Positions 1 to 16,536 of a stretch of DNA of 17,958 nucleotides are shown here, piece after piece. The notes under the pieces are model-generated. The model was not told the origin of the DNA, made no database searches, and saw nothing but the letters and a program-made list of their open reading frames with translations. A program made the translations under genes and the position numbers. The stretch's first letter is position 1. The number at the start of each line of letters is the position of its first letter. Source of the DNA: Halodesulfurarchaeum sp. (GTDB lineage Archaea > Halobacteriota > Halobacteria > Halobacteriales > Halobacteriaceae). The DNA lies in contig JAGXLJ010000002.1 of NCBI GenBank assembly GCA_018334775.1, positions 1 through 17,958 on the forward strand, read 5' to 3'.

Positions 1-222
1 GAGGAGATACCCTGTGGGGAGCCGCGGCACCGCGCTTCCGAGCCCTGCGAGTGTCGCGATCAGCCCGACAGTCGCTTCGCCGGCGTCAAACACCCGAATG
101 AACTGATCCAGCAGCGGGGCAAAGACCACGCGGCCGAAATTGACCAGAAAAACCAGCACCAAAAGCGAGGAGAAAACCTGCAGACGTTGACGTTCGACGA
201 CGTCCGATTCCGGAGGCTGCAC
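1..222 (-). CDS. MFS transporter, N-terminal part (cut by window edge)
   Basis: This is the first 74 codons of a Major Facilitator Superfamily membrane transporter; the rest lies beyond the left edge. The frame opens at a GTG (222-220) four codons after an in-frame TAA, so this is the first possible start. A short polar N-terminus is followed by a hydrophobic segment (about residues 16-36) that runs into RVVFAPLL. A second hydrophobic stretch (about 51-66) ends in the motif PRLPTGYLL, typical of helix 2 and the following loop in haloarchaeal MFS proteins. The gene starts 25 bp after the stop of the preceding minus-strand gene, so it is probably the distal gene of the leftward operon. The substrate cannot be inferred from this fragment. 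Family assignment rests on motif recognition alone. Confidence 0.75.
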   Translation of the reverse strand, partial: MQPPESDVVERQRLQVFSSLLVLVFLVNFGRVVFAPLLDQFIRVFDAGEATVGLIATLAGLGSAVPRLPTGYLL

Positions 223-247
223 AGTTCTGATTTACCCATCTCGCCCA

Positions 248-745
248 TCAAGGTTTGCGATTCGGTCCGTCCGACAGAGCCACCCGCAATCGGACGTATT
301 CCCGGACCGGAAACGGCGCCTCGGCCTCGATTTTGGAGCGCAACGTTTCCGCATCGCCGAACCCGTACCGAGAGGCGACTGTATCGACGTCAATCGGACC
401 CCGACTCATCTGAACGATGAGGTGATCGCGAATCCGTCCTCGAACGGAAACAGGCCTGTAGGACGATTCGATGGCGAGAATGGCAGCGACCGTCCGAAGT
501 GATAGCTCGTCGATCGGGTCGGTCCCACTCGCTGGCACTTCCCCAATGGCTTCGACCTGTTCGGGTTCGAGTCCGGTCGCTGTTGCCACCTGCTCCACCC
601 CTTCCGAACGAACAATCGGTGCGAGAACGGCCCCCAATCGACGTTTCAGTCTCGTGACCTCGTCCCACTCAGCGTTGGTTCGATTTCCGTCTGACACCTG
701 GGATTCGGGAGCGGCCAGAAACCTGGCAATCAATGGCCGCGTCAT
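248..745 (-). CDS. Haloarchaeal helix-rich conserved protein (DUF5791-like)
   Basis: A 165-residue soluble protein with no signal peptide or membrane segment. Residues about 45-70 read like a helix-turn-helix (VATATGLEPEQVEAI). They are followed by a helical LSLRTVAAILAIE block and a second conserved-looking part, IRDHLIVQMSRGPIDVDTVAS. This order resembles the haloarchaeal DUF5791 family as I remember it; the match is tentative and the function is unknown. The ATG lies 6 bp after the stop of the large surface-protein gene and has a GGTGGTGA Shine-Dalgarno-like stretch just upstream, so it is probably translated from the same leftward mRNA. A regulatory or adaptor role is only a guess. Confidence 0.7.
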   Translation of the reverse strand: MTRPLIARFLAAPESQVSDGNRTNAEWDEVTRLKRRLGAVLAPIVRSEGVEQVATATGLEPEQVEAIGEVPASGTDPIDELSLRTVAAILAIESSYRPVSVRGRIRDHLIVQMSRGPIDVDTVASRYGFGDAETLRSKIEAEAPFPVREYVRLRVALSDGPNRKP

Positions 746-751
746 CGCGCT

Positions 752-3625
752 TCACCACCCTGGAGAGGTTTCGACGGCCTGTCCATCTGTATCACCAACG
801 CCAGTTCCGCCTGGCGGGACCACAATGACGACTCCCGTTCGAGCCTCGAGGGAGAGTGCCCGGTTCGTCCCCAGAACCTCTGGCGTTCCGTCGGCATCGA
901 TGTCAGTCCTGATATGCGTGTTCTCTCTAACGTACTCGACGGTACCGTTTGCTCCACGGCCTGGCGCTGCCCGGCGGCTACGGACAGCAAACCGGTCGTA
1001 TGTCCCCTGAACTTCGACCGTCCACGCGTTAGCTGTCGCGTACCAAGACCCCGGAACAGGCAGGAGCGGCAATCCGGCTGGGAGGCTTCCGACGGTCTTT
1101 CCTGTCCCCCCACTCCAGGCTCGCTTGCCAGCGGCCGTGCCCGCTGCTTTCGCCGATTCCTCAACCACCCCACTGGTCTCTGTGGTGACCTCGGTCCGGG
1201 CAGCCTCGACAAGCGATTGGGACACCTGAACGTCGGTCTCGGAGCGGGCTTCGGCACTCGCGATACGAAGCGCAACCCGAAGCCGGTCTCGCTCAGTTGC
1301 TGGGAGGCTCCGGGGAAGCCGCTCCGCCACAGCAGCCGCCAGCCTTCCGTCGGCCACAGCCAGCGCCTGCGAGTGGACGTCCGACCACTCGGTATTCGCC
1401 GACTGAACCAGTTGGTGGGCCTGTCCGACCCCCACTGACGGGGCAAGCACCGAGCGGAACCGGTCGTTCGCATAATCGACCGATCGGTCAAGGTCCCGTC
1501 GCAACGACCGAACCGCCTGTCGGTCACCGTGATCTGTCCGCTCCGATGCTGCGAGTGTCTGTGCTCCCGTCCGAATCGAAACCGACTGGCTGTCACCAGC
1601 ACCGACCCGCTCGGCGATTCCATCAGCCGCATCACCGTAGGGCACGGTAAAGAGGTTCACGTTCCTGGCGGCGAGTGTGGGGTCGTGTCCGCTTGGCGGT
1701 TCGACTGAGAGATACGCCGGGCCACCGTCCACCGACGAAACATAGGCATCGGCTGAGGGCTGGGAGCGTTCAGGAGGGTCGGTCGGAACCATTTGGGACT
1801 GCAGTTGGTCCGCGAACGCGTTCTGAGCCCGTTGCACCAGCGGTGTTCGAGATTCCAGTTGTTCGGTGACCCGATCGAAATACGAGTGTCGGGCCGCGGT
1901 GACAGCGCGCTCAGCGGCTGACCCGTATCGGTTCGGTGTGTCCAGCAGATCGTGACGGTTTGTTTGGATGGCACTCGCGAGTTCCGCCGCAGGATTCGTG
2001 GAACTGGCGACCGACCGGGTTTCAACCGAGACCGAGACCTCCTGAACGGCCCGTCGGAGGTCGGCTGTTCGGCTGGTCGCCCGATCCGTTACCGCCTCCG
2101 GGGGCTCGACATGGACGGTTCGCCACCCAGAATCACCGCCCCCAGACACGGCCGCCAGGGACCGCTCCTCCACCGCCGATCCGGAGAGAAGTCGGGCCGT
2201 CCCAGCGGACCGCAGGCGGTCCGTCGCTACCTCTCCAAACGGACACTGACCATCGGGCCGGTTCGGGGCTACCCCGGGGGCTTGGTACCGACAGTCCAGA
2301 TCGAGAGTAACCTGGTAAGTCGTCCGCTTCAAATCCTGAGTCGTTTCGAGGGTTCCGTTGCCGGACCAGTAGTGAGTCGTTACCTGTTCCTCAATGACTC
2401 GCCCTCGGTAGGTCCGCAGCGTCGAACCGTGCCCGGGCCAAAAGTCCCCACCATCGTGCCATCGCTCCGTGCTCGTGTCCGCAAACAGTTCAGTCGCGTT
2501 ATCTGGGCGCGATCCGAAGGACGTATACTCTGTCTGTTGACGCGATGCTCGGCTTTGGACACGCACGTCCCCACGGTACACCCTCTCGACCGTGTCTGCG
2601 AGACTGCGGCCATCTCGCCCATCGACAAATGCCAAATAGGCAGTGTCAGCAGCATGATCGGCGTCGACTGACTGTTCAGAATCGACGACACTCGGGATCG
2701 GAACGTCCGGCGAACCAGCAGGCTCGCCTGCTCCTGTCGGCTCGCCTTGGGGCTTGCCTAACTGGGACTTCACGGTTTCCTCGGCCCCGAGGAACACGTC
2801 CCGAGCAGCGACTTCCGTGGCAGCCACTGTTGTTCCGTTCCGCCCGTCCGGGTCTTCAACTCCGAAAACTGCCGCCTGCTGGGCAAGCAAGGCGTCGTTC
2901 GCCATCACCTCCACGTGCCGGTTCGCCAGCACGTTCTCGATCGGTGCGCCCCCGTACTGCGCATAACCACGCATCCAAACGATTGGGAAGAGTCGCGCAG
3001 TCAGGTCCTGGGTCAGGCCCGATTTGGTGATCCCTGCGTTCAGTCGGCTTTCGTACCGGTTCGTTCTGTCGTGGAGTTCGAGGGCTGGCATCGCCATTGT
3101 TAGCGTGGCGTTGTACCGAAAGCGGTCGATAAGCCGGTCGTGACGGGTCACGGTTACCTGCAGGCCCTCGACCCGAACCCGATACCGATCCGCCGAAACT
3201 GACCGAACCGAAACGTTCGACAGCGCCTGTCGGGCCGTTTGAGGATCCGTTATCGGCGGCAGTGTCACGGTTGCCTCGACGCTGTCGCGGCTGGCGTTCG
3301 TCTCGGCGAGTGCCGTCCGAGCACCACTGGCGATTCGTAGTTCCAATGCGTCACGAAAGGTATTCTCGTTCGAAAGGATCGTGCCGTACCCCGTGTCACT
3401 GGGTTCGAGTACCGGTTCGGCCGCGGCTGCACGGCCTGCGTCTCGCACCGCCGCATCAAGTGCCAGCCGTGCTTCCAGTTCGACGTCGGACACCACCTCA
3501 TCCGTCACCGGTTCCGTCGCCGGCGGTGGTGCAAACGAAACAGCATAAAACGAACTCGAAAGTAACAGCAAGGCCCCCAGAAATGCAAACGGGATCCGGC
3601 CTCGCTTGTCACTGGCAAAGGTCAT
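752..3625 (-). CDS. Large pilin-like surface protein (DUF7286-type)
   Basis: A 957-residue protein with one N-terminal hydrophobic helix (about residues 10-31) directly after a basic stretch (DKRGR), then a long polar, Ser/Thr/Asp/Arg-rich body with no other clear membrane segment. It is therefore probably anchored by its N-terminus with the body outside the cell. Seven N-x-S/T sequons are visible (near residues 110, 137, 172, 263, 376, 423 and 893). The only two cysteines, Cys445 and Cys461, are 16 residues apart and could form a disulfide. The start chosen is the ATG in an ATGA overlap (3622-3625) with the upstream stop, preceded by GGTGG at a 5-nt spacing; an in-frame ATG 12 codons upstream is less likely. 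Its place at the end of the pilin-like series suggests a tip or adhesin-like component, comparable in layout to bacterial TadG, but that is inference. Confidence 0.85.
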   Translation of the reverse strand: MTFASDKRGRIPFAFLGALLLLSSSFYAVSFAPPPATEPVTDEVVSDVELEARLALDAAVRDAGRAAAAEPVLEPSDTGYGTILSNENTFRDALELRIASGARTALAETNASRDSVEATVTLPPITDPQTARQALSNVSVRSVSADRYRVRVEGLQVTVTRHDRLIDRFRYNATLTMAMPALELHDRTNRYESRLNAGITKSGLTQDLTARLFPIVWMRGYAQYGGAPIENVLANRHVEVMANDALLAQQAAVFGVEDPDGRNGTTVAATEVAARDVFLGAEETVKSQLGKPQGEPTGAGEPAGSPDVPIPSVVDSEQSVDADHAADTAYLAFVDGRDGRSLADTVERVYRGDVRVQSRASRQQTEYTSFGSRPDNATELFADTSTERWHDGGDFWPGHGSTLRTYRGRVIEEQVTTHYWSGNGTLETTQDLKRTTYQVTLDLDCRYQAPGVAPNRPDGQCPFGEVATDRLRSAGTARLLSGSAVEERSLAAVSGGGDSGWRTVHVEPPEAVTDRATSRTADLRRAVQEVSVSVETRSVASSTNPAAELASAIQTNRHDLLDTPNRYGSAAERAVTAARHSYFDRVTEQLESRTPLVQRAQNAFADQLQSQMVPTDPPERSQPSADAYVSSVDGGPAYLSVEPPSGHDPTLAARNVNLFTVPYGDAADGIAERVGAGDSQSVSIRTGAQTLAASERTDHGDRQAVRSLRRDLDRSVDYANDRFRSVLAPSVGVGQAHQLVQSANTEWSDVHSQALAVADGRLAAAVAERLPRSLPATERDRLRVALRIASAEARSETDVQVSQSLVEAARTEVTTETSGVVEESAKAAGTAAGKRAWSGGTGKTVGSLPAGLPLLPVPGSWYATANAWTVEVQGTYDRFAVRSRRAAPGRGANGTVEYVRENTHIRTDIDADGTPEVLGTNRALSLEARTGVVIVVPPGGTGVGDTDGQAVETSPGW

Positions 3626-4119
3626 GGCGACCACCGTCTGAGGACGACGACCGGTTGGCACTCAGTCTCGTTAATCCCAATCGGTTGTGGCAATTCGTAC
3701 ACAGTTGCCCGAATTGGTCGGTCGCCAGGCGGCGTTCGCCCTGCGAGAAGGGGGTCGGCCTCCTGAGTGCCCCGACAAACTCCGATCACCTGTACGGGTG
3801 CGCCATGTGTTTCGACGTGATCGGTGATCGCGGCTCTGGTTGCCTGCCGGTATGCGACCTTCCTGCTCGAGTTCGCTCCATCTCCCGCGAGTGCTGCATC
3901 TGCAAGGTGTCCCCCGACCGTTTCATGCACCGTCCAATTACTCCCCTCACTCTCGAATTCGACGGTGAGTGAACTGCCCAAGATAGCAGCTTGCCCACCA
4001 TCAGAAGGTGTCTCGATCGGCGCCGGGACCGCTGTCGCGACGACACCGGTGGCGATCCCAACCAAGAGTAATCCCAGCACCACGTCGATTGGAGTGCTGA
4101 TGGCTCGATCGGCGGTCAT
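3622..4119 (-). CDS. Pilin-like membrane-anchored protein (DUF7284-type)
   Basis: A 165-residue protein. MTADRAISTPIDV is followed by a hydrophobic helix (about residues 12-32) and then a polar domain rich in Thr, Asp and Gly, with two cysteines (in GVCRG and ETECQ) in the C-terminal half. The layout, a short basic N-terminus, one hydrophobic helix, and an outside domain, fits a minor pilin or pseudopilin. The start is the ATG that overlaps the upstream stop as ATGA (4116-4119) and has GGTGG just upstream; a longer in-frame reading of 35 codons would run deep into the preceding gene and has Arg/Pro-rich shadow-like composition. It matches my memory of the haloarchaeal DUF7284 family. Its partners are the neighbouring ATPase and TadC-like genes. 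Confidence 0.82.
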   Translation of the reverse strand: MTADRAISTPIDVVLGLLLVGIATGVVATAVPAPIETPSDGGQAAILGSSLTVEFESEGSNWTVHETVGGHLADAALAGDGANSSRKVAYRQATRAAITDHVETHGAPVQVIGVCRGTQEADPLLAGRTPPGDRPIRATVYELPQPIGINETECQPVVVLRRWSP

Positions 4120-4487
4120 GCATCCACCCGGAGGACTCCTGGAACTTCGCCTCGCTCGCTTCGGATGAGGACGTGCCGCAGGCGGGTCCGTTGTGCATCG
4201 TCCGGTGGTGTTCCCCAGTGCCAAGTTCGCCCATCTGCCCGAAGGGTTACGGCCATTTCCTGTGGCAACGCACCGTCGAGGTCATCCAATCGGTCGGGCA
4301 CGACCACGGAGCCCTCGCTCAGGATCCCCACAGTCCGGGTCATCGTCGCGTCCGAAATCCTGGTATCCGTGGGGAGTGTTTGGTCTGCCAGCGTGCCGCC
4401 ATAAAGTGACACCCCGATCGCAAAGACGGCAAGCCCCAGAAGCGCAGGGAGCGGTTCGACTTGGGCCCTACGTGGCGACGAGAACAC
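4116..4487 (-). CDS. Pilin-like protein with RRAQVEP N-terminus (DUF7285-type)
   Basis: A 123-residue protein. The N-terminus (FSSPRRAQVEPLPALLG) places two arginines and Ala-Gln-x-Glu directly before a hydrophobic helix (about residues 14-32), then a short outside domain. This resembles a class III prepilin signal, which prepilin peptidase would cut before the Gln; that processing is inferred. The start codon is GTG, 20 bp inside the preceding gene, and is supported by a perfect GGAGGTGA Shine-Dalgarno (4491-4498, minus strand) 3 nt upstream. No ATG precedes the signal-like region. It matches my memory of the haloarchaeal DUF7285 family. It overlaps its neighbours on both sides, so translation is likely coupled. 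Confidence 0.82.
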   Translation of the reverse strand: MFSSPRRAQVEPLPALLGLAVFAIGVSLYGGTLADQTLPTDTRISDATMTRTVGILSEGSVVVPDRLDDLDGALPQEMAVTLRADGRTWHWGTPPDDAQRTRLRHVLIRSERGEVPGVLRVDA

Positions 4488-4935
4488 CGCTCACCTCCCC
4501 ATAGTGGACCTGTTTGATCCGGAGTGTCTCACCGGCAGGCCGCCATTCTGGCGGTTGTATCCGGGCTTGATGCATCGCTGCGCCGAACCGTCCCGGGTTC
4601 ACGAACACGGACTTGGGCGAGTGTCCATCAAGAACGTACCCCAGCGAGGAGTTCGGGGGCACCGGTGTGATAGGGCCGTAGCGAATCGATGCATGTGACC
4701 TACCGCCCGAGCCGCGGAGTCCGATCCGCTCGGGACCGAGCCGAACGGTCTGCGCCCTGAGATCCACGACGGCTTCCCCTCCATGCTCGCTGACTGCGAC
4801 GTCTTCGATGGCCGTTGCTGCTCGATCTGCATCGGGTGCGGCGGTTGGGACGCCCAATACGACACCCAACATCACTGCCGATCCAACCGCCAACCCGACC
4901 CAAACCCAGGTCGTTTCGGCGGGCATTCCGAACAT
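4468..4935 (-). CDS. Membrane-anchored surface protein (DUF7283-type)
   Basis: A 155-residue protein with an N-terminal hydrophobic helix (about residues 9-29, after MFGMPAETT) and a polar domain of about 125 residues that contains PVPPNSSLGYVLDG and ends in SGVLVAT. The layout is again that of a small single-anchor subunit facing outward. The start is the first ATG, 26 bp after the stop of the TadC-like gene; a second ATG three codons in is possible. It matches my memory of the haloarchaeal DUF7283 family, whose members begin with a similar MF-x-x-P-x-[DE] stretch. The role in the machine is unknown; a pilin-like or assembly subunit is inferred from position. Confidence 0.82.
   Translation of the reverse strand: MFGMPAETTWVWVGLAVGSAVMLGVVLGVPTAAPDADRAATAIEDVAVSEHGGEAVVDLRAQTVRLGPERIGLRGSGGRSHASIRYGPITPVPPNSSLGYVLDGHSPKSVFVNPGRFGAAMHQARIQPPEWRPAGETLRIKQVHYGEVSGVLVAT
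4491..4498 (-). promoter_or_regulatory. Perfect Shine-Dalgarno fixing a GTG start
   Basis: The minus strand reads GGAGGTGA, the full complement of the archaeal 16S rRNA 3' end, 3 nt before the GTG of the DUF7285-type gene. It lies inside the coding end of the preceding gene and decides the start codon, since no ATG is available before the prepilin-like signal. Confidence 0.8.
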
Positions 4936-4961
4936 GGGCGGGCTTGGTCCGGTTCTGGTAC

Positions 4962-6479
4962 TTAAAGGTACACCAGCGACCGGGCGGCGAGAAAGGAGAG
5001 CGGATACACAAGCCCGCCGACAGCCAGTGCGATGGCGCTCTGATAGCCCATCCGAACCGGGTCAAATCCGCGAGCGAGGACGACAGAAAGCGACGGGAGG
5101 ATTGCAGCTAAGAGGAGCACATAGACGCCGATGACCTGGCCCAATGCTGCGACATCCAGGGCCTGCCCGGAGCCGTCTACGGCCTTCATTCCAGTTGCAA
5201 GCGCCACCGTGACTCCGGCAATTGCCGGGGCAAACACCACGGCGGTCTGCCGAAGCGTACTCGTGGTTTGGGCAAGTTCACGTCGCGCAACCCGCTCGAC
5301 AGCGAGCAGTTCGTCGAGGTACGTCCCGACCGACACGAGAGTTTGGCCGCCGGATTTCCCGTAGTCCCCGGCCGTCATCACGAGGGCGAGTCCCGCTTCT
5401 ACCCGTTGGCTCGGAACGTCCGTCAAAAGCCCATCGTCGCCGAGAAACACCGTCGCCATGGGTTCGCCCGATTGCTGCTGTCGAGTTGCGCCTCGGGAAA
5501 AGAGCGCTCCGATCGGGCCGTCAAAGCGGTCCGCAACCGAGGCGACCGTCGTTTCCACGGGATTCCCTTCTTCGAGGCGCTGGCCGACTATCCTCAGCGC
5601 GTCTGGAAGTCGGGCTTCGAGACGGTCCAGCCGGCTCTGGGTCTCGATAACAGGCTGGAGCCAGACGAACACCCCCGTTCCACTGCCGACACCGACAGCA
5701 GTGATCGGTGCGGTCCACTCAGGTGCAACGAGCGAGATTCCCACCCCCGCGAAACCGGCTGCTCCAAACCCGGCCCCAATAGCCCAGGAAACGGGTCTCG
5801 CGTCGGAAAGCAACCCAAGGTCGAACGCCGTATCACTCACGGCCGGACGACTGGCCCACAGCCAGAATCCGCTCCCGGCCAATCCGATCGGGATGAGGAA
5901 GTCGTACATGACCCCAAGAGCCACCGTGGACACGCCACCACCCGAGGAAGCAAGCACCGGGAGCAATCCGACCAGCGCGAGGGGAAGCATCACTCCAAAC
6001 GCGTAGATCCCCATTGCCGGGCCACGAATGGCCGTCGAAAATTCGACTACCCGTTCGCGAGCGCCCTCGAGTACGGCGTCGAGCGCATCTTCCAACGTTT
6101 CCTCGCGCCGTTCGCGCGGGGCGTCCATTGCAACGGCCATGAGTGTGACCGCCCGCTGCAGCGACCGGTCCTCACTCACCCACTCGGCGGCAAAGGCTTC
6201 AAACGCCCGCTCGCCCGAAACCGCTGCGACACGATGCGCACGAAGCGAACGGCTCAAACGCCCCTCGACGGCCTCCGTCGCGAAATCCGCTGCCCGTTCC
6301 AGGGACGGTGTGAGTGTGAGTTGGAGGATCGCGAAGGCCAAAAGGTCAGGTGCGCGGCCGACGGCACGACTGCGGGCGAACGTTTCGAGCAACTCAGCAC
6401 CACGAGGACAGAGTACCTGCAGTGTAAGCCGTGCTCGAACATGGCGGACCCAGGCTCGGTCGGTCGACTGCTCACCCAT
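4962..6479 (-). CDS. TadC/GspF-like type II secretion F-domain membrane protein
   Basis: A 505-residue polytopic membrane protein expected to form the inner-membrane platform for a pilus or secretion ATPase. After about 140 mostly polar, helical residues come hydrophobic pairs near residues 154-178 and 184-209, another pair near 231-251 and 256-276, a cytoplasmic helical part (about 285-410, including RLPDALRIVGQRLEEGNPVE, typical of T2SSF/TadB/TadC domains), then three hydrophobic segments near 412-432, 444-468 and 480-500. Two F-type domains in one chain are usual for archaeal forms. Of three possible starts I chose the ATG at 6479, because AGGAGG lies 9 nt upstream; the ATG at 6485 would have only 3 nt spacing. 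It overlaps the ATPase stop by 8 bp. Confidence 0.88.
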   Translation of the reverse strand: MGEQSTDRAWVRHVRARLTLQVLCPRGAELLETFARSRAVGRAPDLLAFAILQLTLTPSLERAADFATEAVEGRLSRSLRAHRVAAVSGERAFEAFAAEWVSEDRSLQRAVTLMAVAMDAPRERREETLEDALDAVLEGARERVVEFSTAIRGPAMGIYAFGVMLPLALVGLLPVLASSGGGVSTVALGVMYDFLIPIGLAGSGFWLWASRPAVSDTAFDLGLLSDARPVSWAIGAGFGAAGFAGVGISLVAPEWTAPITAVGVGSGTGVFVWLQPVIETQSRLDRLEARLPDALRIVGQRLEEGNPVETTVASVADRFDGPIGALFSRGATRQQQSGEPMATVFLGDDGLLTDVPSQRVEAGLALVMTAGDYGKSGGQTLVSVGTYLDELLAVERVARRELAQTTSTLRQTAVVFAPAIAGVTVALATGMKAVDGSGQALDVAALGQVIGVYVLLLAAILPSLSVVLARGFDPVRMGYQSAIALAVGGLVYPLSFLAARSLVYL

Positions 6480-8307
6480 CCGCATGTGCCTCCTGTGGTG
6501 ATGGGCCGCCATGGAGTGTAGACCGTTGGAGGGTCTTTGCTCGTTCTTCGATGTGTTGTCTCGTGTCGGCGTAGGTTTCGTCTGGCCGAGTGAGCGAGGT
6601 CACGATCTGGCTATTGCCCCGCTCGAGTCGCGGCGAAGCGTCGAGCGCCCCGTCATCGTACTCGAAGAGTGTCGCACTGCCGCCCTCGAGAACTTCCTCA
6701 ATCTTCGTAACCCGTTTGCCCGACGGGGCCGGCGCTATGGTCACCAGCAGATCCGTCGCCGCGAACGAGGATTCTGGAACACCGAGGTCGGCCACGACCC
6801 GCTCTTTCACGCCATCGTATCCGTCACCGTGAATGGTCCCGATGACCGTATCACTGGCCGCCCCAACCCGCATCGCCTCGTACAGCACGGCTGCTTCTTC
6901 ACCCCTGACCTCGCCGACCGCTAGCGCACCGTTCCCGAATCGGAGTGCCGTCCGGAGCGCCGTCGCCGGATCGATAGCAGCGTCCGGGCCGGAGGCGGCT
7001 TCGAGTCGCTGCACGTCCCGCCCGGCTGTTTGGAGAGCACGGACGGGCAGTTCTGGCGTGTCTTCGATAGCAAGCAGTCTGGTTTCTGTCGGAAGTTCCC
7101 AGAGCAGTGCGGAAGCCATCGTGGTTTTGCCCGCCCCTCGCGGCCCGGCAACGAGCATAGCCGCCCCGCGAGCCATTGCGACCGAAAGAAGTGCTGCGGC
7201 CTCAGCTGAGACCGTCCCGTTGTCGACCAGTCGCTGCAACCGCCACTGAGCCGTTCCCTCAGCTCTGAGCGCGAAGGCGTACCCGTCGCTTGCGGGTTCC
7301 CTGACACCAGCCACGCGAATCGAATCAGCCTGGCCGATTCCCGACAGTGTGGCGTCGATGGTTGGCGCCGCACGGGAAAACGCCACTCCACTTACCGTCC
7401 GTAGCCCGGCCGCGAGCCGATCAGTCCCGCGCTCAGTGAGTGTGACGTTCGTTCGAAGTTCCGCCCCGTCGACACGGACGTAGAGTGGGTTCTCGGTCGC
7501 CGGGGCGTTGACGAAGACTTCTGAAAGGCGGTCATCGCTGAACAGGTCCTCGAAGACGCCGTATCCGGCGGTGTGTTTTTTCAACACCTCCGTGAGCGTA
7601 TCGACCGGGCAGTTCGAGCCCGCAACCCCCGAAATGGCGGCGCGATAGTCTGTCGGAGAGCCCGCCTCCGTGGAGACCAGTCGATCTTTTGCACTTGCAA
7701 GTGTGGCGAGTGCGTCGTCGTCAAGGGTGTATTCGAGCGGTTCGAGCTGGTATACCGAGCGTTGGTCCGGTCGGTCGTAAATCCGAACAGTCGCCCCGGA
7801 GTCGACGACTCGTGAGACCCGCAGTTGTCCATCCTCCGGTGGCACGGTGTCGAGGTAACTGGCAGTTATCCGCGGGATTCGTCGGGGTTCGAGGAAGGCC
7901 GCGGTGGTTTCGGAACGATCGTTAAAGCGCGTGAGCCCGGTCGTCTTGGCGACCTCCCCAACAAGTCCAGCCCGGCCACTTGCTTCCGCAGCCGCGCCAA
8001 TCGGGTCTTCACGTGCAAGGGTAGCAAGTCGGTTAGCACGGCCGGAGACCCGGCTGGCGAAGTGGCTTGCTGCTCGAAGCACGTCGACGGCCTCACCCTC
8101 GTACAACCGGTCGACGCCACGAGCGCTGAGCGTAATGCGTTCGATTGGAGCCGAGCCGATGGCTTCGATGACCGTTCGACGACACGCACTGTGCTCCTTC
8201 AGGATTCCATCCAATGGGCACTCCGCGGTGTCCACCTCCAGCGTGGTTCCCCGAACAGTGGGAGTGCACCCACATTCGGGATTCTCTGAGTCGGATCGGC
8301 CGAACAT
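6472..8307 (-). CDS. Type II/IV secretion system ATPase (archaeal TadA/VirB11-like)
   Basis: A 611-residue motor ATPase. In the 611-residue numbering the hallmarks are Walker A GPRGAGKTT at 388-396, the Asp box IEDTPE at 414-419, Walker B-type ALAVGEVRGEE at 461-471 and the His box GTIHGDG at 490-496, all in family order. The N2-type domain before Walker A contains LFSDDRLSEVFVNAP (about 255-270). The N-terminus carries four cysteines (12, 14, 30 and 42) that could bind a metal. The start is an ATG at 8307; the open frame extends 14 codons further to a TTG inside the upstream gene, which is less likely. The gene lies 22 bp after the upstream stop and overlaps the TadC-like gene, the usual ATPase/platform pair. 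No clear Shine-Dalgarno is seen. Confidence 0.93.
   Translation of the reverse strand: MFGRSDSENPECGCTPTVRGTTLEVDTAECPLDGILKEHSACRRTVIEAIGSAPIERITLSARGVDRLYEGEAVDVLRAASHFASRVSGRANRLATLAREDPIGAAAEASGRAGLVGEVAKTTGLTRFNDRSETTAAFLEPRRIPRITASYLDTVPPEDGQLRVSRVVDSGATVRIYDRPDQRSVYQLEPLEYTLDDDALATLASAKDRLVSTEAGSPTDYRAAISGVAGSNCPVDTLTEVLKKHTAGYGVFEDLFSDDRLSEVFVNAPATENPLYVRVDGAELRTNVTLTERGTDRLAAGLRTVSGVAFSRAAPTIDATLSGIGQADSIRVAGVREPASDGYAFALRAEGTAQWRLQRLVDNGTVSAEAAALLSVAMARGAAMLVAGPRGAGKTTMASALLWELPTETRLLAIEDTPELPVRALQTAGRDVQRLEAASGPDAAIDPATALRTALRFGNGALAVGEVRGEEAAVLYEAMRVGAASDTVIGTIHGDGYDGVKERVVADLGVPESSFAATDLLVTIAPAPSGKRVTKIEEVLEGGSATLFEYDDGALDASPRLERGNSQIVTSLTRPDETYADTRQHIEERAKTLQRSTLHGGPSPQEAHADG
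6489..6494 (-). promoter_or_regulatory. Shine-Dalgarno choosing the TadC-like start
   Basis: The minus strand reads AGGAGG. It is 9 nt before the ATG at 6479 and only 3 nt before the ATG at 6485, so it favours 6479, two codons further in. It lies within the last codons of the ATPase, 18 bp before the end of the ATPase open frame, consistent with coupled translation. Confidence 0.65.
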
Positions 8308-8329
8308 GGACACGGGTGGGCTGGTCCCC

Positions 8330-8803
8330 CTACTTGAACCCTCGGGCAACCGTAATGACAGCAGTGCCGTCGACTCGGCGATAGTGAAGGGTCAGTTCGG
8401 TAGATTCCCGAACAGTGAGTGAATCGTTCCAGCTGACGGCTCCGTCGGGTCCATGTGGTCTGATCGTTTCGTTGAGCACTGTGTGCCCAGGTGGGTCACC
8501 AGGAACCATCGTCCGAATCTGACTGCGCCCCGAGGTGTCGCCATCCGCAGGCGGTCCGATTGTAATTCCTGCATCGGCCGGTTTGTCAGGAAGCGAAACG
8601 CGCACCCGACGAGTGGCTGCTGGCACCCCAGGCGGAACTGGGTCACTCTGTCGAACAAGGGCCATTGCCGCCGTATTAAGGTCATCTACCGTCGTCGAAA
8701 GCTGGCGATCGGCCTGTGTCCGTTGGGCGGCCTGGATCGCCGGCATGGATGCCGCGACGAGCGCCCCCGCGAGAACAACCGCAAGCAGGAGCCGGAGACT
8801 CAT
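8330..8803 (-). CDS. Small exported or membrane-anchored protein (DUF7311-type)
   Basis: A 157-residue protein beginning MSLRLLLAVVLAGAL, a strong signal or anchor helix (about residues 3-25) ending AIQAAQ, followed by a helical segment (about 28-50) and a mostly beta-type polar domain with VRVSLPDKP, SLTVRESTELTLHYRR and a C-terminal TAVITVARGFK. The ATG overlaps the stop of the coiled-coil gene as ATGA (8800-8803). It matches my memory of the haloarchaeal DUF7311 family, found just upstream of the secretion ATPase. The pilin-like layout (hydrophobic N-terminal helix continuing into an amphipathic one) is suggestive, but the molecular role is unknown. Confidence 0.82.
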   Translation of the reverse strand: MSLRLLLAVVLAGALVAASMPAIQAAQRTQADRQLSTTVDDLNTAAMALVRQSDPVPPGVPAATRRVRVSLPDKPADAGITIGPPADGDTSGRSQIRTMVPGDPPGHTVLNETIRPHGPDGAVSWNDSLTVRESTELTLHYRRVDGTAVITVARGFK

Positions 8804-9234
8804 CGGAGTGATCGAAGGCGGTCGATGAGGCTGGACTCCGGTTGCGTTTCAGCGTCCTCGTCAGGTTCAGCGGTCGCCGTGGACGCTGATTCGGCAGATT
8901 GCTGTTTGGCTGTGGCGATCGGCGGTGGTGTTTTCGGGGCGGATTCGAGTCGCTCGACGGCTGCAAGCGCGGCATCCGCCCGCCGTTCGACGGTCTCATT
9001 GACATGTTCGACGGTCCCGACGTACCCTCGCACAGCCTTGAGACCCGCTTCGAGTTCGGCGACCGTTGATTCGAGGGTCTCGATTCTGTCGCGGAGGTCG
9101 GCGTGGTCGGAACGTGTCCCCGATTCCCCGGCCGGTGGCTCACTCCCGGTTGTCTTGGCCGTGTCTGCCGGCTCCGCAGACAGCCGTCGTTCCAGTGCGC
9201 CCACCCGCTCGTCAATACTCCGTCGCTCTGGCAT
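8800..9234 (-). CDS. Acidic coiled-coil protein (DUF7310-type)
   Basis: A 144-residue soluble protein with no membrane segment. A short N-terminal helix (IDERVGALERRL) is followed by a linker rich in Thr/Ser/Gly, a heptad-like coiled coil (about residues 46-98, through RIETLESTVAELEAGL and VNETVERRADAALAAVERLE), an Ala/Glu/Ser-rich low-complexity tail and a final SSLIDRLRSLR helix. It is the first gene of the leftward operon, with a TATA-like box about 30 bp upstream and no Shine-Dalgarno, which suggests an almost leaderless mRNA. It matches my memory of the haloarchaeal DUF7310 coiled-coil family. A cytoplasmic accessory or scaffold role for the ATPase is inferred from position only. Confidence 0.83.
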   Translation of the reverse strand: MPERRSIDERVGALERRLSAEPADTAKTTGSEPPAGESGTRSDHADLRDRIETLESTVAELEAGLKAVRGYVGTVEHVNETVERRADAALAAVERLESAPKTPPPIATAKQQSAESASTATAEPDEDAETQPESSLIDRLRSLR

Positions 9235-9260
9235 CGCTCAAAGGTGGGCCGGGGCTCCGG

Positions 9261-9267
9261 GATAAAG
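9261..9267 (-). promoter_or_regulatory. TATA-like box for the pilus-like operon
   Basis: On the minus strand this reads CTTTATC, close to the TTTAT-type archaeal TATA box of halophiles. Its centre is about 30 bp before the ATG of the coiled-coil gene at 9234, which would give a leader of only a few bases. All ten genes to the left follow with small gaps or overlaps and I see no equally good box between them, so this could drive the whole unit. Confidence 0.55.
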
Positions 9268-9294
9268 GTCAGGACGGGGCGAACTGGGAACGAG

Positions 9295-10641
9295 TTACGC
9301 CAAACTTTCGCCGTCGAATTCGCCCGACTCGTAGTCTATCTCCATCAGGTCAAGAATCGTCGGCGTGATGTCGAGCAGATCGGTGTCAGCCGGGACACTG
9401 AGATCCGAATCATCGATCAACAGGGTGGCTTCAGCGAAGGTGTGCATGCCGTTCCGGGGCCCCGAGTCGAAGACGGAATCGTGGCCCGAGAAGCCTGATT
9501 TCAGATCGAAGCCGTCGTTCGGAATGGCCACCAGATCGGGTGCAATGTCGTCGTGCGGGCCCGAGAAGGCGTCTTCCTTGGGAACCACACGTTCGACGAC
9601 CTCCCGACCGTCCGGCCCAGTGAGGGTCTCGAGCGCCTCTTTGAGTTCCGTTCGAACCGACTCGTACTCGGCCTCGGGAACCGACCCACATGGATCGCGC
9701 CCTTCCAAGTTGATGTAGAAGCGCCCGGGGATGAACGAATATGCCCTCGTCTCTGCGTCGATGTCCGCGAGGTCTTCGGGGTCGTGGGACGAATACGAGA
9801 GCCAGCCTTCCGCCTCAAGCCACGCATTCAGATGGACTTCGTGGTGGAGCGTTGTGAAGCCATGGTCGCTCGCGACGAGCATCGTGGCATCATCCGGGAG
9901 TTCATCGCGAAGGGAGCCCAAATGTTGGTCGACAGTCTCGTAGAACTCGAGGAACTCCGCCTGGTACTCGCCGTCCGCCTCGTAGTGTTCGAAAAGGAAG
10001 TGATTGACCCGATCGGTCGTCATAAAGACGCCGAAAAACAGGTCCCAGTCGTCTCCTGTGAGGTAATTCTTGAAGGCCTCGTACCGTGCATCGAGGGTCT
10101 CGTGAGCGTCCTCGATGAACGCCGACTTGTCCGCTTCGTGGCCCAGTTTCGCGTTCACGTCGATCCGGTAGTCCATGGACTCCAGTTCCGACGCGAAGGA
10201 CTCGGGCACAGCTGCCTTCTCGACCGATGGTGACAGAAATCCTGACACCATCCGATTCGGTTCTCTGTCCGGCGGGAAAGTCACGGGCACGTTCATGACC
10301 GTCGTGTCACGACCCGCCTCTTGGACGCGGGACCAAAGTCGGGTCGACTGCACGTCGTTCCCCATGGGAACATAGGTGTCATACGAACCGACTTCCCGGT
10401 CCTGGAAGCCGTACACGCCAGTTTTCCCCGGATTCGTGCCCGTTGTCAACGCGGGCCAACACGCGCTTGACTCCGGCGGAACGATACTCTGCATCGGCCC
10501 GCCAGCGCCTCCCTCCGCCAACTCGGTGAGGTTCGGGAACCGCTCAGGATTGTCCTCGATGAGCGACCACGGAACGCCGTCGATGCCCAGAAACGCGACG
10601 CGTGGACCTTCGTCCCCGCGTAACCGGTCGAACAGACCCAT
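9295..10641 (-). CDS. Alkaline phosphatase superfamily phosphodiesterase/nucleotide pyrophosphatase-like protein
   Basis: A 448-residue soluble enzyme of the alkaline phosphatase superfamily (type I phosphodiesterase/nucleotide pyrophosphatase fold), expected to hydrolyse phosphate mono- or diesters using two metal ions. Visible residues are Asp21 in FLGIDGVPW, the nucleophile region PPESSACWPALTTGTNPGKTG (positions 55-75, written here as the 21-residue span's key residues Ser58, Ser59 and Thr67), Asp210 and His214 in TTDRVNH, Asp259 and His260 in ASDHGF, and a late His400 in GMHTF. There is no signal peptide, so it is probably cytoplasmic. The ATG at 10641 was chosen because MGLFDRL precedes the first strand; the 28 codons upstream are Cys/Arg-rich and atypical. 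The stop is 60 bp before the pilus-like operon. The substrate is unknown. Confidence 0.88.
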   Translation of the reverse strand: MGLFDRLRGDEGPRVAFLGIDGVPWSLIEDNPERFPNLTELAEGGAGGPMQSIVPPESSACWPALTTGTNPGKTGVYGFQDREVGSYDTYVPMGNDVQSTRLWSRVQEAGRDTTVMNVPVTFPPDREPNRMVSGFLSPSVEKAAVPESFASELESMDYRIDVNAKLGHEADKSAFIEDAHETLDARYEAFKNYLTGDDWDLFFGVFMTTDRVNHFLFEHYEADGEYQAEFLEFYETVDQHLGSLRDELPDDATMLVASDHGFTTLHHEVHLNAWLEAEGWLSYSSHDPEDLADIDAETRAYSFIPGRFYINLEGRDPCGSVPEAEYESVRTELKEALETLTGPDGREVVERVVPKEDAFSGPHDDIAPDLVAIPNDGFDLKSGFSGHDSVFDSGPRNGMHTFAEATLLIDDSDLSVPADTDLLDITPTILDLMEIDYESGEFDGESLA

Positions 10642-10773
10642 ATCAGGCTGGGACTTCCGCTTTGACACCCAAGAAACTTCGTATCCGCGTCCGAGACAGT
10701 GGTTGCATCGAACGAAGAATCCCACTGGTGCACCGAACCGAAGGTCACTCCTAACCGGCCGACCGAAAAATCC
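10642..10773. other. Intergenic region before the phosphodiesterase-like gene
   Basis: A 132-bp gap between two minus-strand genes. Apart from the T5 tract at 10766-10770 I see no strong TATA box or Shine-Dalgarno for the gene starting at 10641. A weak AT-richer patch, AAGTTTCTT on the minus strand at about 10672-10680, is 30-40 bp upstream of it and is the best promoter candidate. Confidence 0.4.
10766..10770 (-). terminator. T5 tract after the small acidic gene
   Basis: The minus strand has TTTTT three bases after the TAG of the 42-residue gene. Archaeal RNA polymerase stops at short T tracts without needing a hairpin, so this may end a short independent transcript. Confidence 0.45.
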
Positions 10774-10902
10774 CTAGTGCTCCGCTGTCTCGGAATCCGA
10801 GTCCGACTCATCGTCCGCGGATTCGGCCTCGATTCCGGGCTCGAAGTTCGTCGGGACCACGGTCAAATGACGGATCCCGACTTGCGGTGATCGTGCGGCC
10901 AT
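10774..10902 (-). CDS. Small acidic protein, 42 residues, unknown function
   Basis: A 42-residue protein. The first half (PQVGIRHLTVVPTNFEP) is ordered-looking and hydrophobic; the second half is a strongly acidic tail of Asp, Glu and Ser. Such composition is typical of real haloarchaeal proteins and unlike the Arg/Pro/Ser-rich shadow sequence found further upstream in the same frame. I chose the ATG at 10902. A longer in-frame ATG at 10932 would overlap the likely TATA box (TAATTA, 10934-10939). The gene is followed almost at once by a T5 tract, which supports its own transcript. I do not recognise the family. It sits between inorganic pyrophosphatase and the phosphodiesterase-like gene, both on the same strand. 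Confidence 0.6.
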   Translation of the reverse strand: MAARSPQVGIRHLTVVPTNFEPGIEAESADDESDSDSETAEH

Positions 10903-10933
10903 CACAATTATACCTATGTGACCGACCCCCATG

Positions 10934-10939
10934 TAATTA
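10934..10939 (-). promoter_or_regulatory. TATA-like box for the small acidic gene
   Basis: TAATTA, which reads the same on both strands, is centred about 34 bp before the ATG at 10902. It would place transcription start roughly 5-10 nt before that ATG. Confidence 0.35.
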
Positions 10940-10997
10940 CCCATACGCATAATACATCGGAGGGTCGAACGCATATGTCCACGACTCATCACCCTGC

Positions 10998-11058
10998 GTT
11001 TCGGCGTCGTGACACCCAGTGTTCCGGTGTGAGGACACCGGGGTTTCGGCGTCTTGAC
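10998..11058. repeat. Direct repeat pair flanking a hairpin
   Basis: Two copies of a 16-bp sequence, GTTTCGGCGTCGTGAC (10998-11013) and GTTTCGGCGTCTTGAC (11043-11058), differ at one base. Between them lies a perfect 7-bp inverted repeat, CCGGTGT (11024-11030) and ACACCGG (11035-11041), with a GAGG loop. The block lies in the 181-bp gap between inorganic pyrophosphatase and the small acidic gene. It could be an mRNA 3'-end structure of the pyrophosphatase transcript or an operator; its role is not clear. Confidence 0.7.
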
Positions 11059-11064
11059 CGACCC

Positions 11065-11069
11065 AAAAA
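11065..11069 (-). terminator. T5 tract after inorganic pyrophosphatase
   Basis: The minus strand has TTTTT 14 nt after the pyrophosphatase stop. It overlaps a 6-bp inverted repeat, CCAAAA (11063-11068) and TTTTGG (11075-11080). A T-tract archaeal terminator for the pyrophosphatase transcript is plausible. Confidence 0.5.
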
Positions 11070-11083
11070 CCCGATTTTGGCCG

Positions 11084-11617
11084 TTATTCGAACTCAGCTT
11101 CGTAGAGGTCTTGGGCGTGTTCGATAGCCTCGAAGGCTGCCTCCCGGTTTTCCCACCCCAGGGTTTCGACTTCCTTGCCCTCCTCGAGGTTCTTGTAGGT
11201 CTCGAAGAACTCGGAGATTTCATCGAGGGTCTGCTGGGGCACGTCATCGATGTCCTCAAAGTGGTCGTAGCGCGGATCCTCGACGGGGACGGCGAGGACT
11301 TTGTCGTCCTGTTCGCCGTCATCGTCCATCCGCATCAAAGCGATCGGTCGGGCTTCGATGACACACCCTGGGAAAGTCTGGTCTTCGACCAGTACGAGCA
11401 CGTCGAAGGGGTCACCGTCATCGTAGTAGGACTTGGGGATAAACCCGTAATCACCTGGATAGTGGACGTTGCTGTGAAGGACCCGATCGAGAACCACACC
11501 AGGAATGTCCTTGTCGTACTCGTACTTGTTCCGTTCGCCCTCGAGACACTCGATGACCGCATAGATGGTCTCTGGCGGGTTCGGTCCCGTTTCCAGGTCT
11601 TCGAAGAGATTCGCCAT
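11084..11617 (-). CDS. ppa: Inorganic pyrophosphatase (family I)
   Basis: A 177-residue soluble family I inorganic pyrophosphatase, which splits pyrophosphate to two phosphates with Mg2+ and so drives nucleic acid, tRNA-charging and lipid synthesis forward. The family signature is present as DGDPFDV (residues 67-73), with active-site residues in NKYEYDKD (Lys31, Glu33) and the acidic MDDDGEQDDKV region (near 95-105). Length and sequence are typical for haloarchaea. The start was set at MANLFEDLETGPNPPE; two ATGs further upstream in frame would overlap the likely promoter. A TATA-like AAATCTA lies about 30 bp upstream. It is divergent from the PadR-like regulator, with 131 bp between the two starts. 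Confidence 0.96.
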   Translation of the reverse strand: MANLFEDLETGPNPPETIYAVIECLEGERNKYEYDKDIPGVVLDRVLHSNVHYPGDYGFIPKSYYDDGDPFDVLVLVEDQTFPGCVIEARPIALMRMDDDGEQDDKVLAVPVEDPRYDHFEDIDDVPQQTLDEISEFFETYKNLEEGKEVETLGWENREAAFEAIEHAQDLYEAEFE

Positions 11618-11643
11618 ACCCAGACCTGTTGTGGTCCGGGACA

Positions 11644-11650
11644 TAGATTT
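11644..11650 (-). promoter_or_regulatory. TATA-like box for inorganic pyrophosphatase
   Basis: The minus strand reads AAATCTA, preceded by further A residues, about 30 bp before the ATG at 11617. It lies in the 131-bp divergent promoter region shared with the PadR-like gene, which also holds an 8-bp palindrome CAGCGCTG at 11660-11667. Confidence 0.35.
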
Positions 11651-11719
11651 TTCGTCTTCCAGCGCTGAACAATTCGAACCCAATGACCAGAAATCGGCTC
11701 TCAGTACATTTGGGAAGGG

Positions 11720-11725
11720 TTAAAT
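11720..11725 (+). promoter_or_regulatory. TATA-like box for the PadR-like regulator
   Basis: TTAAAT, preceded by the purine-rich GGGAAGGG that could act as a BRE, is centred about 26 bp before the ATG at 11749. This spacing predicts a leaderless mRNA, in line with the absence of a Shine-Dalgarno before the ATG. Confidence 0.5.
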
Positions 11726-11748
11726 GAGTCACTGGCTTTCGGCCATTC

Positions 11749-12099
11749 ATGTCAAAGGGACGCCGAGTTAGTCTGACGGCTGCACGCGAGCTGACGGCCT
11801 TTCAAAAGAACATCCTTACCGTCCTGGCCGAAGAGCCCCGGTACGGGCTCGCCATAAAGCGGGAACTGGAATCGTACTACGACGATGATGTAAACCACGG
11901 TCGTCTGTACCCGAATCTAGACGATCTTGTCGAGGAGGGCTTTGTCGAAAAAAGTGCTCTCGACAAGCGAACAAACGAATACGGGCTCACCGAGGCCGGG
12001 CATGAGGCCGTGCGTGATGATCTTCGTTGGTCCCTTGAGCACTTCCTGACGGACGGAAACCGAGCCGATTTCGTCGAGTCGATGCTCCAGGACGAATAG
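11749..12099 (+). CDS. PadR-like winged-helix transcriptional regulator (RosR-like)
   Basis: A 116-residue DNA-binding protein. The winged helix-turn-helix spans about residues 14-85: LTAFQKNILTVLAEE, then YGLAIKRELESYY, the recognition-helix region HGRLYPNLDDLVEEGFVEK, and the wing KRTNEYGLTEAG. The HGRLYPNLD stretch and the pattern are typical of the PadR family. A C-terminal helix (about 88-114) would provide dimerisation. It resembles RosR, the reactive-oxygen-response regulator of Halobacterium salinarum, in size and start (MSKGRRVSLTAARELTAFQ), but I could not align it, so the name is not assigned. It diverges from inorganic pyrophosphatase and may regulate the shared promoter and itself. 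Confidence 0.88.
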   Translation: MSKGRRVSLTAARELTAFQKNILTVLAEEPRYGLAIKRELESYYDDDVNHGRLYPNLDDLVEEGFVEKSALDKRTNEYGLTEAGHEAVRDDLRWSLEHFLTDGNRADFVESMLQDE

Positions 12100-12131
12100 C
12101 TGAACAGGTTTCCGGGTCGGCGAGTGCGAAC

Positions 12132-12701
12132 TCAGCGATTATCAGTATCGACAGGCTCAGGGTAGGATTCGCCAGCGACGGCAAACAGTTTCTCGATAGA
12201 GGACTCGATCACCGCCGCCTGGGCTGGTGGCGGCCACGTGTTTCGCGGATAGTACTTTGATAGAAAGTGGTCGACCGCTGCTGCCGTCGCGGCCTCGACC
12301 CGTACCTTGTGGTGATTCGCCATGTACGTTCCAAACGCTGCGGCGTTCGCGCCGTGCGTGTCACCGAACTCCCGCGTCACTTTCGCGGCTAACTCGGTAT
12401 TGTGGGCCTGAATCGCGTCCCATCCATCAGCAGGGGGATCAGAGAACAGTGGCCGTTCGACAGCGTTCGCCGTCGATTCCAGTTGGTCGGGTTGGAAGAC
12501 CCCCTTTTCGAGCCACGATTCTGGATAACAGATCAGCACCGGACCGTCGTCGTCTGCACGAAGACGGGCCGAATAGCCATACGATTCCAAGAGTGAGTCA
12601 CGTCTCGAGCGAAGCGCACTCGAATCAGGATGGGTGTCCCGTCGTGCCGCCAGAGTCATAGCCCGAGCGGTTTCGACGACTGAATCAGGAAGGTCAGGCA
12701 T
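12132..12701 (-). CDS. Haloarchaeal conserved protein downstream of rnhA (DUF7108-type)
   Basis: A 189-residue soluble acidic protein of unknown function. The N-terminus MPDLPDSVVETARAMTLAARR is helical. A central part contains PVLICYPESWLEKGVF, then ERPLFSDPPADGWDAIQAHN, and the C-terminal half has GDTHGANAAAFGTYMANHH followed by FLSKYYPRNTWPP. It resembles the haloarchaeal DUF7108 family as I remember it, commonly found next to ribonuclease HI. The chosen ATG overlaps the rnhA stop by 8 bp (12694-12701), so translation is coupled; the in-frame extension further upstream is rnhA shadow. There is no membrane segment. It ends convergently, 32 bp from the PadR-like gene. Confidence 0.85.
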   Translation of the reverse strand: MPDLPDSVVETARAMTLAARRDTHPDSSALRSRRDSLLESYGYSARLRADDDGPVLICYPESWLEKGVFQPDQLESTANAVERPLFSDPPADGWDAIQAHNTELAAKVTREFGDTHGANAAAFGTYMANHHKVRVEAATAAAVDHFLSKYYPRNTWPPPAQAAVIESSIEKLFAVAGESYPEPVDTDNR

Positions 12702-13290: not shown

Positions 13291-13427
13291 TGGAAGTATC
13301 TCGGGCACCGATGCTCAAGTAATCCTCGAAAAAGCCCGAAAACGACCGGAAAGCGACCTATCTATCAGGGATACTAACGGTATGTTTTATTCTGTCGTTT
13401 ACCAGAGGTTACAATTGAGGCAATGAG

Positions 13428-13458
13428 TTTAAGTCAATCGAGTAAACTACTACTTAAA
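13428..13458 (+). promoter_or_regulatory. tfb promoter: TATA-like box within nested inverted repeats
   Basis: TTTAAGT at 13428-13434 is a good TATA-like box about 32 bp before the tfb ATG. It is repeated in inverse as ACTTAAA at 13452-13458, just before the start codon. A second inverted pair is AGTTTA (13426-13431) and TAAACT (13443-13448). The symmetry over box and start site suggests a possible operator. A further AT-rich TATGTTTTATT lies at 13381-13391. The rest of the rnhA-tfb gap shows nothing else I can name. Confidence 0.5.
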
Positions 13459-13462
13459 TGCG

Positions 13463-14422: not shown

Positions 14423-14443
14423 GACGTAGACTGAAGCGAAGCC

Positions 14444-14450
14444 ATTTTAG
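14444..14450 (+). promoter_or_regulatory. TATA-like box for the GGGP synthase-family gene
   Basis: ATTTTAG is centred about 27 bp before the ATG at 14474, in the 51-bp gap after tfb. There is no Shine-Dalgarno before the ATG, so a leaderless transcript is likely. The T4 run could also help end the tfb transcript. Confidence 0.45.
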
Positions 14451-14473
14451 CCGGGCCAAGAGTCCAGTGGACC

Positions 14474-15172: not shown

Positions 15173-15197
15173 GTTCCACCCAGGCGAAATACGGATG

Positions 15198-15204: not shown

Positions 15205-15228
15205 GCGGTCCGTTGCCTAGGTGCCTTC

Positions 15229-16533: not shown

Positions 16534-16536
16534 GGG

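Follow-up and report, generated by a model that had tools for sequence, protein, structure and literature searches.

A pilB2/C2 type IV pilus regulon has been described in Haloferacales and Halobacteriales, where it lies beside cetZ2 and has a phosphodiesterase (arCOG01377) and a putative transcription factor (arCOG04674) near it; 13 species were counted in which it is found away from cetZ2, and its recent acquisition was called consistent with the data (PMC9856176). Systems of subclade 4F have an ATPase with a Cys-rich N-terminus, a halobacterial coiled-coil subunit, an ftsZ-like neighbour and a major pilin that is mostly a stand-alone gene, and they have members in Methanocella (PMC4858521). 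Haloferax volcanii PilB2 has been placed in subclade 4C (PMC6491452), which conflicts with the 4F assignment. Here, we analyzed a stretch of 17,958 nucleotides (nt) of Halodesulfurarchaeum sp. (contig JAGXLJ010000002.1, positions 1 to 17,958; hereafter, the window), in which eight packed genes had been predicted from the sequence alone to form a Tad/type IV pilus-like machine. The prediction had correctly spotted a real system, which is an already described haloarchaeal type IV pilus locus, neither Tad nor undescribed.

To this known locus we add a promoter type that, in many relatives, precedes three of its genes (those for DUF7310, the ATPase and DUF7283) and is shared with the gene of a pilin, DUF7382, encoded elsewhere. 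We also put forward two proposals that we did not find in the literature searched, namely, that DUF7382 is probably the filament subunit and that the pilus may have a role in DNA uptake. The original prediction had held that the product of the locus was not established; the locus itself has been described (PMC4858521, PMC9856176), and it remains true that no function was found published. In the literature searched, no paper was found on DUF7286 or on DUF7283, DUF7284, DUF7285, DUF7310, DUF7311 and DUF5791.

The pilus locus and its conservation

An open reading frame (ORF) list and a Pfam search recovered eight tightly packed ORFs in the window, all on the minus strand and running from 9234 to 752, as predicted (sizes in amino acids, aa):

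8800..9234, minus strand: DUF7310 coiled-coil protein (PF23991, E 3.1e-21), gene 1 of 8 in 69/80 loci
8330..8803, minus strand: DUF7311 protein with one N-terminal membrane anchor (PF23993, E 7.9e-29)
6472..8349 (alternative ATG 8307), minus strand: VirB11/PilB-type secretion ATPase with a Cys-rich N-terminal part (T2SSE, E 1.4e-15)
4962..6512 (alternative internal start nearer 6479), minus strand: TadC/PilC-like membrane platform (T2SSF, sub-threshold)
4468..4935, minus strand: DUF7283 membrane-anchored protein (PF23954, E 1.9e-43)
4116..4487, minus strand: DUF7285 protein with the pilin-like leader RAQ-VEP (PF23956, E 1.5e-16)
3622..4119, minus strand: DUF7284 protein with the PilA-like leader RAIST (PF23955, E 2.3e-9)
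752..3625, minus strand: DUF7286, a large anchored protein (~957 aa) with the leader KRGRIPFAF (PF23957, E 2.2e-257)

The ATGA overlaps at 8800, 4116 and 3622 are all real, and the longer ones at 6472 and 4468 hold only depending on the start codon chosen. The four anchored proteins, said to be of rising size, have ~155, 123, 165 and 957 aa, with no steady rise. The Pfam search of each protein that had been suggested assigned DUF families to six of the eight and T2SSE to the ATPase (57.3 bits against a cut-off of 24.9). The relatives of the ATPase in the PDB are 2oap, CpaF, FlaI and VirB11; its Walker A motif is GPRGAGKT, the Asp, Walker B and His boxes can be seen by eye, and the N-terminus shows a CxC...C...C pattern in the window and in its relatives. 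In a quick tree of 69 secretion ATPases (built without bacterial rows and with a long-branch warning), 15 fall on one side of a single branch with SH-aLRT support of 100: that of the window, nine other haloarchaeal ones and five from the same phylum outside the class. The platform, which had been described as two-domain, has a single, weak T2SSF match below the cut-off (22.1 against 25.2 bits) and no PDB match was found for it; it adjoins the ATPase in the loci examined.

All eight genes were found on the same strand and in the same order in 69 of the 80 named haloarchaeal loci sampled, and six of the other 11 are truncated by a contig end. This co-conserved synteny is not due to chance and, together with the PDB relatives of the ATPase and the leaders on three anchored families (see below), it supports the type IV pilus-like part of the prediction. 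The marker DUF7286 was found in 151 of the 194 genomes sampled from the class and in 76 of 294 drawn from the phylum at large (a draw that includes haloarchaea), and Methanosarcina acetivorans, one of the control genomes, has it as well. The order DUF7285-7284-7286 is kept in four genomes outside the class (L207, L208, L209 and L210). In the five outside genomes examined, the ATPase/TadC pair lies at least 20 kb from these three genes or on a separate contig; TadC is the neighbour of the ATPase in these five as well as in haloarchaea.

Some loci are rearranged (L066/L067 in G033, L062 in G057 and L054 in G050), with the motor at the ancestral site and the pilin-like genes elsewhere, with halves facing apart, or with an altered gene order, which shows the modularity of the operon. 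One genome outside the class (G397, L214:13588-17425) has separate DUF7286-matching genes downstream of a full-length DUF7286, with neighbours that are secreted-looking proteins of ~200 aa carrying the motif YYND..LLPGK.

A stand-alone pilin shares a promoter type with the operon

The consensus found upstream of operon genes is TTYAW-N9-CGSGRCCA, followed by 8 to 9 nt and the start codon. A GNGRCCA box located 6 to 12 nt (nearly always 8 to 9) before the start precedes DUF7310 in 41/69 cases, the ATPase in 42/73 and DUF7283 in 57/80, and the other five genes in 2/69, 3/77, 1/80, 1/80 and 2/80. A TATA-like box at -36 to -21 follows the same distribution (22/69, 28/73 and 62/80; 0/69, 0/75, 0/80, 0/80 and 0/80 before the other five), with 0.4% at random positions. 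Since promoter-type sites precede these three genes and hardly any others in the operon, the operon probably consists of three co-regulated units, at least in many relatives, and the spacing suits leaderless transcripts. The corresponding sites in the window are as follows:

9245..9266, minus strand: possible promoter 1, TTTAT-N9-CCGGCCCA, 10 nt before the DUF7310 start; 2 mismatches, weak in the window
8322..8338, minus strand: possible promoter 2, TTCAAGTAGGGGGACCA, TATA-like part 31 nt before the ATPase ATG 8307; box shifted by 5, 3 mismatches
4945..4966, minus strand: promoter 3, TTTAAGTACCAGAACCGGACCA, 9 nt before the DUF7283 start; 1 mismatch

Across 16 genomes, the strict pattern gave 2 to 17 sites per genome and the backwards pattern 0 to 2. 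We inspected 62 sites in six genomes (mostly hand-picked), and at 30 of them an ORF of at least 45 codons starts 7 to 10 nt downstream. Five of the six genomes have the strict pattern ahead of DUF7382, a stand-alone pilin whose leader is of the RAIEGLPVRLV type and which has an immunoglobulin-like head (assigned by Pfam with E 2e-30 for the one tested and by BLAST for the remainder), and two genomes of the genus of the window have it with 1 mismatch. The DUF7382 gene is divergent from a HerA-like ATPase in two of the six genomes inspected, and the same divergent pair is found in G001 and G007, both of the genus of the window, and in G055 (L390, L391 and L399).

At 18 of the 62 sites (L333, L334, L337, L338, L340, L342, L350, L352, L353, L355-L359, L361, L362, L371 and L389), the pattern leads into a start codon, a single further codon and a stop codon (e.g., GTG ACC TGA); these are perhaps small RNAs or minimal leader ORFs, and 16 of them are in two genomes (G196 and G003). 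Helicase-like ORFs (GACGTGKT) begin 15 nt past the pattern in Haloferax gibbonsii and Halobellus (L374, L388).

The distribution of DUF7382 follows that of the operon. With presence defined as a best E of ≤1e-5 (151 genomes, equal to the number over the Pfam cut-off), DUF7382 and DUF7286 agree in 188 of the 194 genomes: 148 have both, 3 the marker only, 3 the pilin only and 40 neither (Fisher 2.7e-34, shared ancestry ignored). The three with the marker only are the incomplete genome of the window, G067 and G089. When two genomes in which the operon is a relic (G012 and G067, see below) are recounted as operon-less, the figures become 147, 2, 4 and 41; G067 lacks DUF7382.

Two gene neighbourhoods bring the pilin and the motor together. 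In G209, a genome from outside the class, a 19-kb stretch (L278) contains a DUF7382-like pilin beside TadC and the ATPase, with a HerA-like ATPase, a Peptidase_A24 gene and a DUF7311 homologue on the other side. The pilin has 35% identity to that of Halobacterium (16.8 bits, below the Pfam DUF7382 cut-off), the HerA-like gene has 37% identity, the Peptidase_A24 gene has E 4.8e-11, and the DUF7311 homologue (26.6 bits, just below the Pfam cut-off of 27) overlaps the peptidase gene. In Halosimplex aquaticum, a MinD-like gene, DUF7382, an ATPase of the same type (E 9e-207) and DUF7283 (E 1e-59) are found within ~18 kb, each behind the pattern; this set is a second pil copy (G445:C1 3546478-3564300, L381-L384), and its MinD-like protein has at least 511 aa. 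DUF7382 is, we think, quite likely the main filament subunit, and it makes the strongest candidate for the major pilin that the locus lacks.

Anchored subunits, the proposed machine and its rivals

Using leader patterns of our own (not FlaFind) combined with a hydrophobic stretch on 80 sequences per family, we found a pilin-type leader in 75/80 DUF7285 and 53/80 DUF7284 proteins, and a leader of the type RG/RA-R-[VI]PF in 77/80 DUF7286 proteins. The claim that the locus has no recognisable pilin is correct as regards a major pilin, but DUF7285 and often DUF7284 have pilin-type leaders, and the stand-alone DUF7382 co-occurs with the operon. Likewise, the absence of a prepilin peptidase holds for the locus; PF06847 is encoded elsewhere in eight of the nine genomes searched (it was not found in the 72%-complete assembly G000, from which the window comes). 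The DUF7284 of the window is a short form of a family whose members usually have ~300 aa. DUF7286 has a strongly conserved C-terminus with the motifs DxDxDG and PPG..GVGD.DG..(E).S.GW, possible calcium sites judging from their sequence; AlphaFold predicts its structure with fair confidence (mean pLDDT 78.1), and the protein is a candidate tip or initiator subunit.

We consider it reasonably likely that the locus encodes the assembly machine of one type IV pilus (pilB2/C2, equivalent to subclade 4F) whose filament is mainly DUF7382. The Cys-headed ATPase and the TadC-like platform would power assembly; DUF7285, DUF7284 and DUF7286, with DUF7283 and DUF7311, would form a membrane-anchored minor-pilin or initiation complex, of which DUF7286 would be the large tip-like member; and the filament would be built mainly of DUF7382, encoded elsewhere and often beside the HerA-like ATPase. 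The chances that each minor subunit has the role proposed here are about even. Several observations weigh against this reading. No class III motif was detected in DUF7283 (0/80) and none was seen in DUF7311, DUF7284 lacks a prepilin leader in 27/80 sequences, and that of DUF7286 has an unusual R at +1. Profile comparison of five of the six pairs among DUF7283, DUF7284, DUF7285 and DUF7311 gave no significant match, and neither did the DUF7286 model against solved folds. DUF7382 was not found in the genome of the window (72% complete), G012 keeps it although its operon is a relic, and the co-occurrence statistic ignores phylogeny. Finally, the DUF7283 site alone is near the promoter pattern in the window, the DUF7310 and ATPase sites, with 2 and 3 mismatches, proving nothing by themselves.

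The locus could instead encode a pilus for adhesion or biofilm formation like PilB1-C1 and PilB3-C3, with PilA-type pilins supplied in trans, DUF7382 and the shared promoter being incidental. Both of those systems act in adhesion in H. volcanii, where PilB3-C3 can substitute for PilB1-C1 (PMC6491452), and Pilin_N (PilA-type) genes are present in 9/9 genomes searched. However, the PilA-type genes are also found in the relic genomes G012 and G067, whereas DUF7382 tracks the operon marker, and G209 has a DUF7382-like pilin and HerA beside the same ATPase type; we regard this explanation as unlikely. The assignment of no filament to the locus in the literature found, and the two anchored families without prepilin motifs, would also suit a non-filamentous secretion or sensing machine (an endopilus, bindosome-like) in which the anchored proteins form no polymer outside the cell. 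The close match in distribution with a pilin encoded elsewhere and the Peptidase_A24 gene within the G209 locus make this very unlikely.

As to the acquisition of a bacterial-type Tad locus by haloarchaea, bacterial Tad/Flp pili have a similar gene order (ATPase, platform, small anchored proteins) and a TadA-related ATPase, and TadA is the top NCBIfam match of the ATPase. Nevertheless, the TadA score is far below the cut-off (117.7 against 373.15 bits), there is one platform gene instead of separate TadB and TadC, and no Flp, TadV or secretin family match was found by Pfam among the eight proteins. The ATPase groups with archaeal ATPases (in the tree without bacterial rows), and Tad is held to derive from archaeal pili, most archaeal type IV pili having one longer platform protein (PMC6668835). 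The Tad part of the prediction is not supported, and such an acquisition seems scarcely credible.

Possible role in DNA uptake

Besides DUF7382, the genes found behind the pattern in the six genomes include a MinD/ParA-like ATPase (4 genomes), a TctA-like gene (3), a PLD protein (3), NucS-like (3) and Cas4-like (3) genes and the HerA-like ATPase (2); at least one of each kind was tested. The PLD protein has a signal-like N-terminus and two PLD stretches and matched NucT models below the cut-off, as did the Cas4-like genes their own models. Ahead of the TctA-like gene, the pattern has 1 mismatch in both G001 and G007; in the genome of the window, it has 2 mismatches and a gap of 10. Natural transformation in Methanococcus maripaludis requires a type IV-like pilus together with a MinD-like ATPase and a TctA-like protein; the last of these is also essential in Methanoculleus thermophilus, a thermonuclease was found too, and the DNA transporter of competent archaea is not known (PMC10133366). 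H. volcanii grows on external DNA, the import of large DNA having been left open (PMC3929857).

We propose a DNA uptake pilus because the MinD-like and TctA-like genes headed by the pattern agree with these transformation genes of Methanococcus (PMC10133366). The proposal is a tentative one. Equally tentatively, a single promoter type may drive a haloarchaeal natural-transformation regulon comprising pilB2/C2, DUF7382, the HerA-, MinD- and TctA-like genes, the PLD nuclease and the NucS- and Cas4-like genes. The filament would bind external DNA, the surface PLD nuclease would process it, and the TctA-like membrane channel would admit it, with the HerA-like protein as a DNA translocase and the MinD-like one as a positioning ATPase. 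Against DNA uptake, and its specificity in particular, TctA-like genes are present in 194/194 genomes, operon or not, and half of the inspected pattern sites are unexplained. Among the matches listed, we recognised no paper linking pilB2 or DUF7382 to DNA uptake.

In six genomes that are relic or operon-less (G060, G067, G073, G134, G165 and G184) and in four marker-positive ones (G087, G121, G152 and G175), the TctA-like gene matched at two places and its best score was weaker; these split matches might reflect broken genes, paralogues or contig ends.

Flanking genes and probable loss of the operon in some lineages

The operon is flanked on both sides by conserved genes, between which remains of it were found in some genomes:

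248..745, minus strand: DUF5791 (PF19104, E 6e-16), beginning 6 nt past the DUF7286 end
9295..10725, minus strand: type I phosphodiesterase, upstream flank (PF01663, E 5e-51), 60 nt upstream of the operon
L068:7443-8321: relic, DUF7310-DUF7286 fusion
L069:7109-8427: relic, DUF7310 and then the DUF7286 end
L281:868-1878: relic, ATPase Cys-rich part fused to DUF5791
L282:1495-2874: relic, ATPase Cys-rich part fused to DUF5791

The end of DUF5791 lies no more than 1.5 kb past DUF7286 in 71 of the 80 loci, and the gene is also present in 19 of 20 genomes without this marker. It is probably a ninth operon gene or a conserved flank, and it probably corresponds to arCOG04674, the putative transcription factor. 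The phosphodiesterase, a homologue of which is found on the same strand in 31 of the 80 loci, probably corresponds to arCOG01377 of the cetZ2/pilB2 region.

The two flanks, phosphodiesterase and DUF5791, enclose a single ORF in G012, in which the start of DUF7310 is fused to the final 216 residues of DUF7286 (85% identity to G003); in G067, they enclose DUF7310 and then the end of DUF7286. In G044 and G073 (two genomes of one genus), ~155 residues of the Cys-rich part of the ATPase run in frame into DUF5791. We read these four as remains of operon deletions, i.e., of loss in some lineages, and the fused relic may explain the earlier annotation of arCOG04674 as a VirB11 component. Of the 19 DUF5791 loci in genomes that lack DUF7286, 17 showed no operon remains within 1.5 kb, so no loss is indicated there. 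In G057, the DUF7310 ORF overlaps DUF5791 and most other operon genes are elsewhere (L061, L062), an arrangement that may represent a move and not a loss.

Comparison with known systems

The archaeal DNA uptake machinery is largely unknown, which gives interest to a set of genes that is defined by a promoter type, grouped around a single pilus and supplies a candidate filament subunit and partner genes for genetic work in a tractable halophile; the proposals are testable in Haloferax. In Methanococcus, the MinD-like and TctA-like proteins are required for transformation (PMC10133366), and here their counterparts lie behind the shared promoter pattern; a thermonuclease is found there, a PLD nuclease here. 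The leaders RAQI/KGQV of Methanococcus pilins (PMC4371748) are of the RAQ/KGQ type and resemble that of DUF7285. However, the ATPase of the Methanococcus Epd pilus is most likely of clade 1 (PMC4858521), a different clade from that of our locus, which speaks against the DNA uptake reading.

With the pilB2/C2 regulon, our locus shares the ATPase, TadC, predicted pilins, a surface protein and both flanks (PMC9856176). There, cetZ2 lies beside the regulon; here, an FtsZ-motif gene is present in 44 of the 80 named loci (the three checked match the FtsZ model below the cut-off, as CetZ would), and no FtsZ-motif frame was found in the six frames of the window; cetZ2 is an accompanying and not a defining feature. 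The relics bear on the suggestion of a recent arrival of this pilus: the published data were consistent with recent acquisition (PMC9856176), whereas the relics favour loss in some lineages.

As in subclade 4F, the window has the Cys-rich ATPase N-terminus and the coiled-coil subunit, and relatives are found outside Halobacteria (PMC4858521). DUF7310 is the counterpart of the 4F subunit arCOG07564, matched by content only, and the literature searched makes no mention of the latter beyond PMC4858521. The major pilin of 4F is mostly a stand-alone gene (PMC4858521), and so is that of DUF7382.

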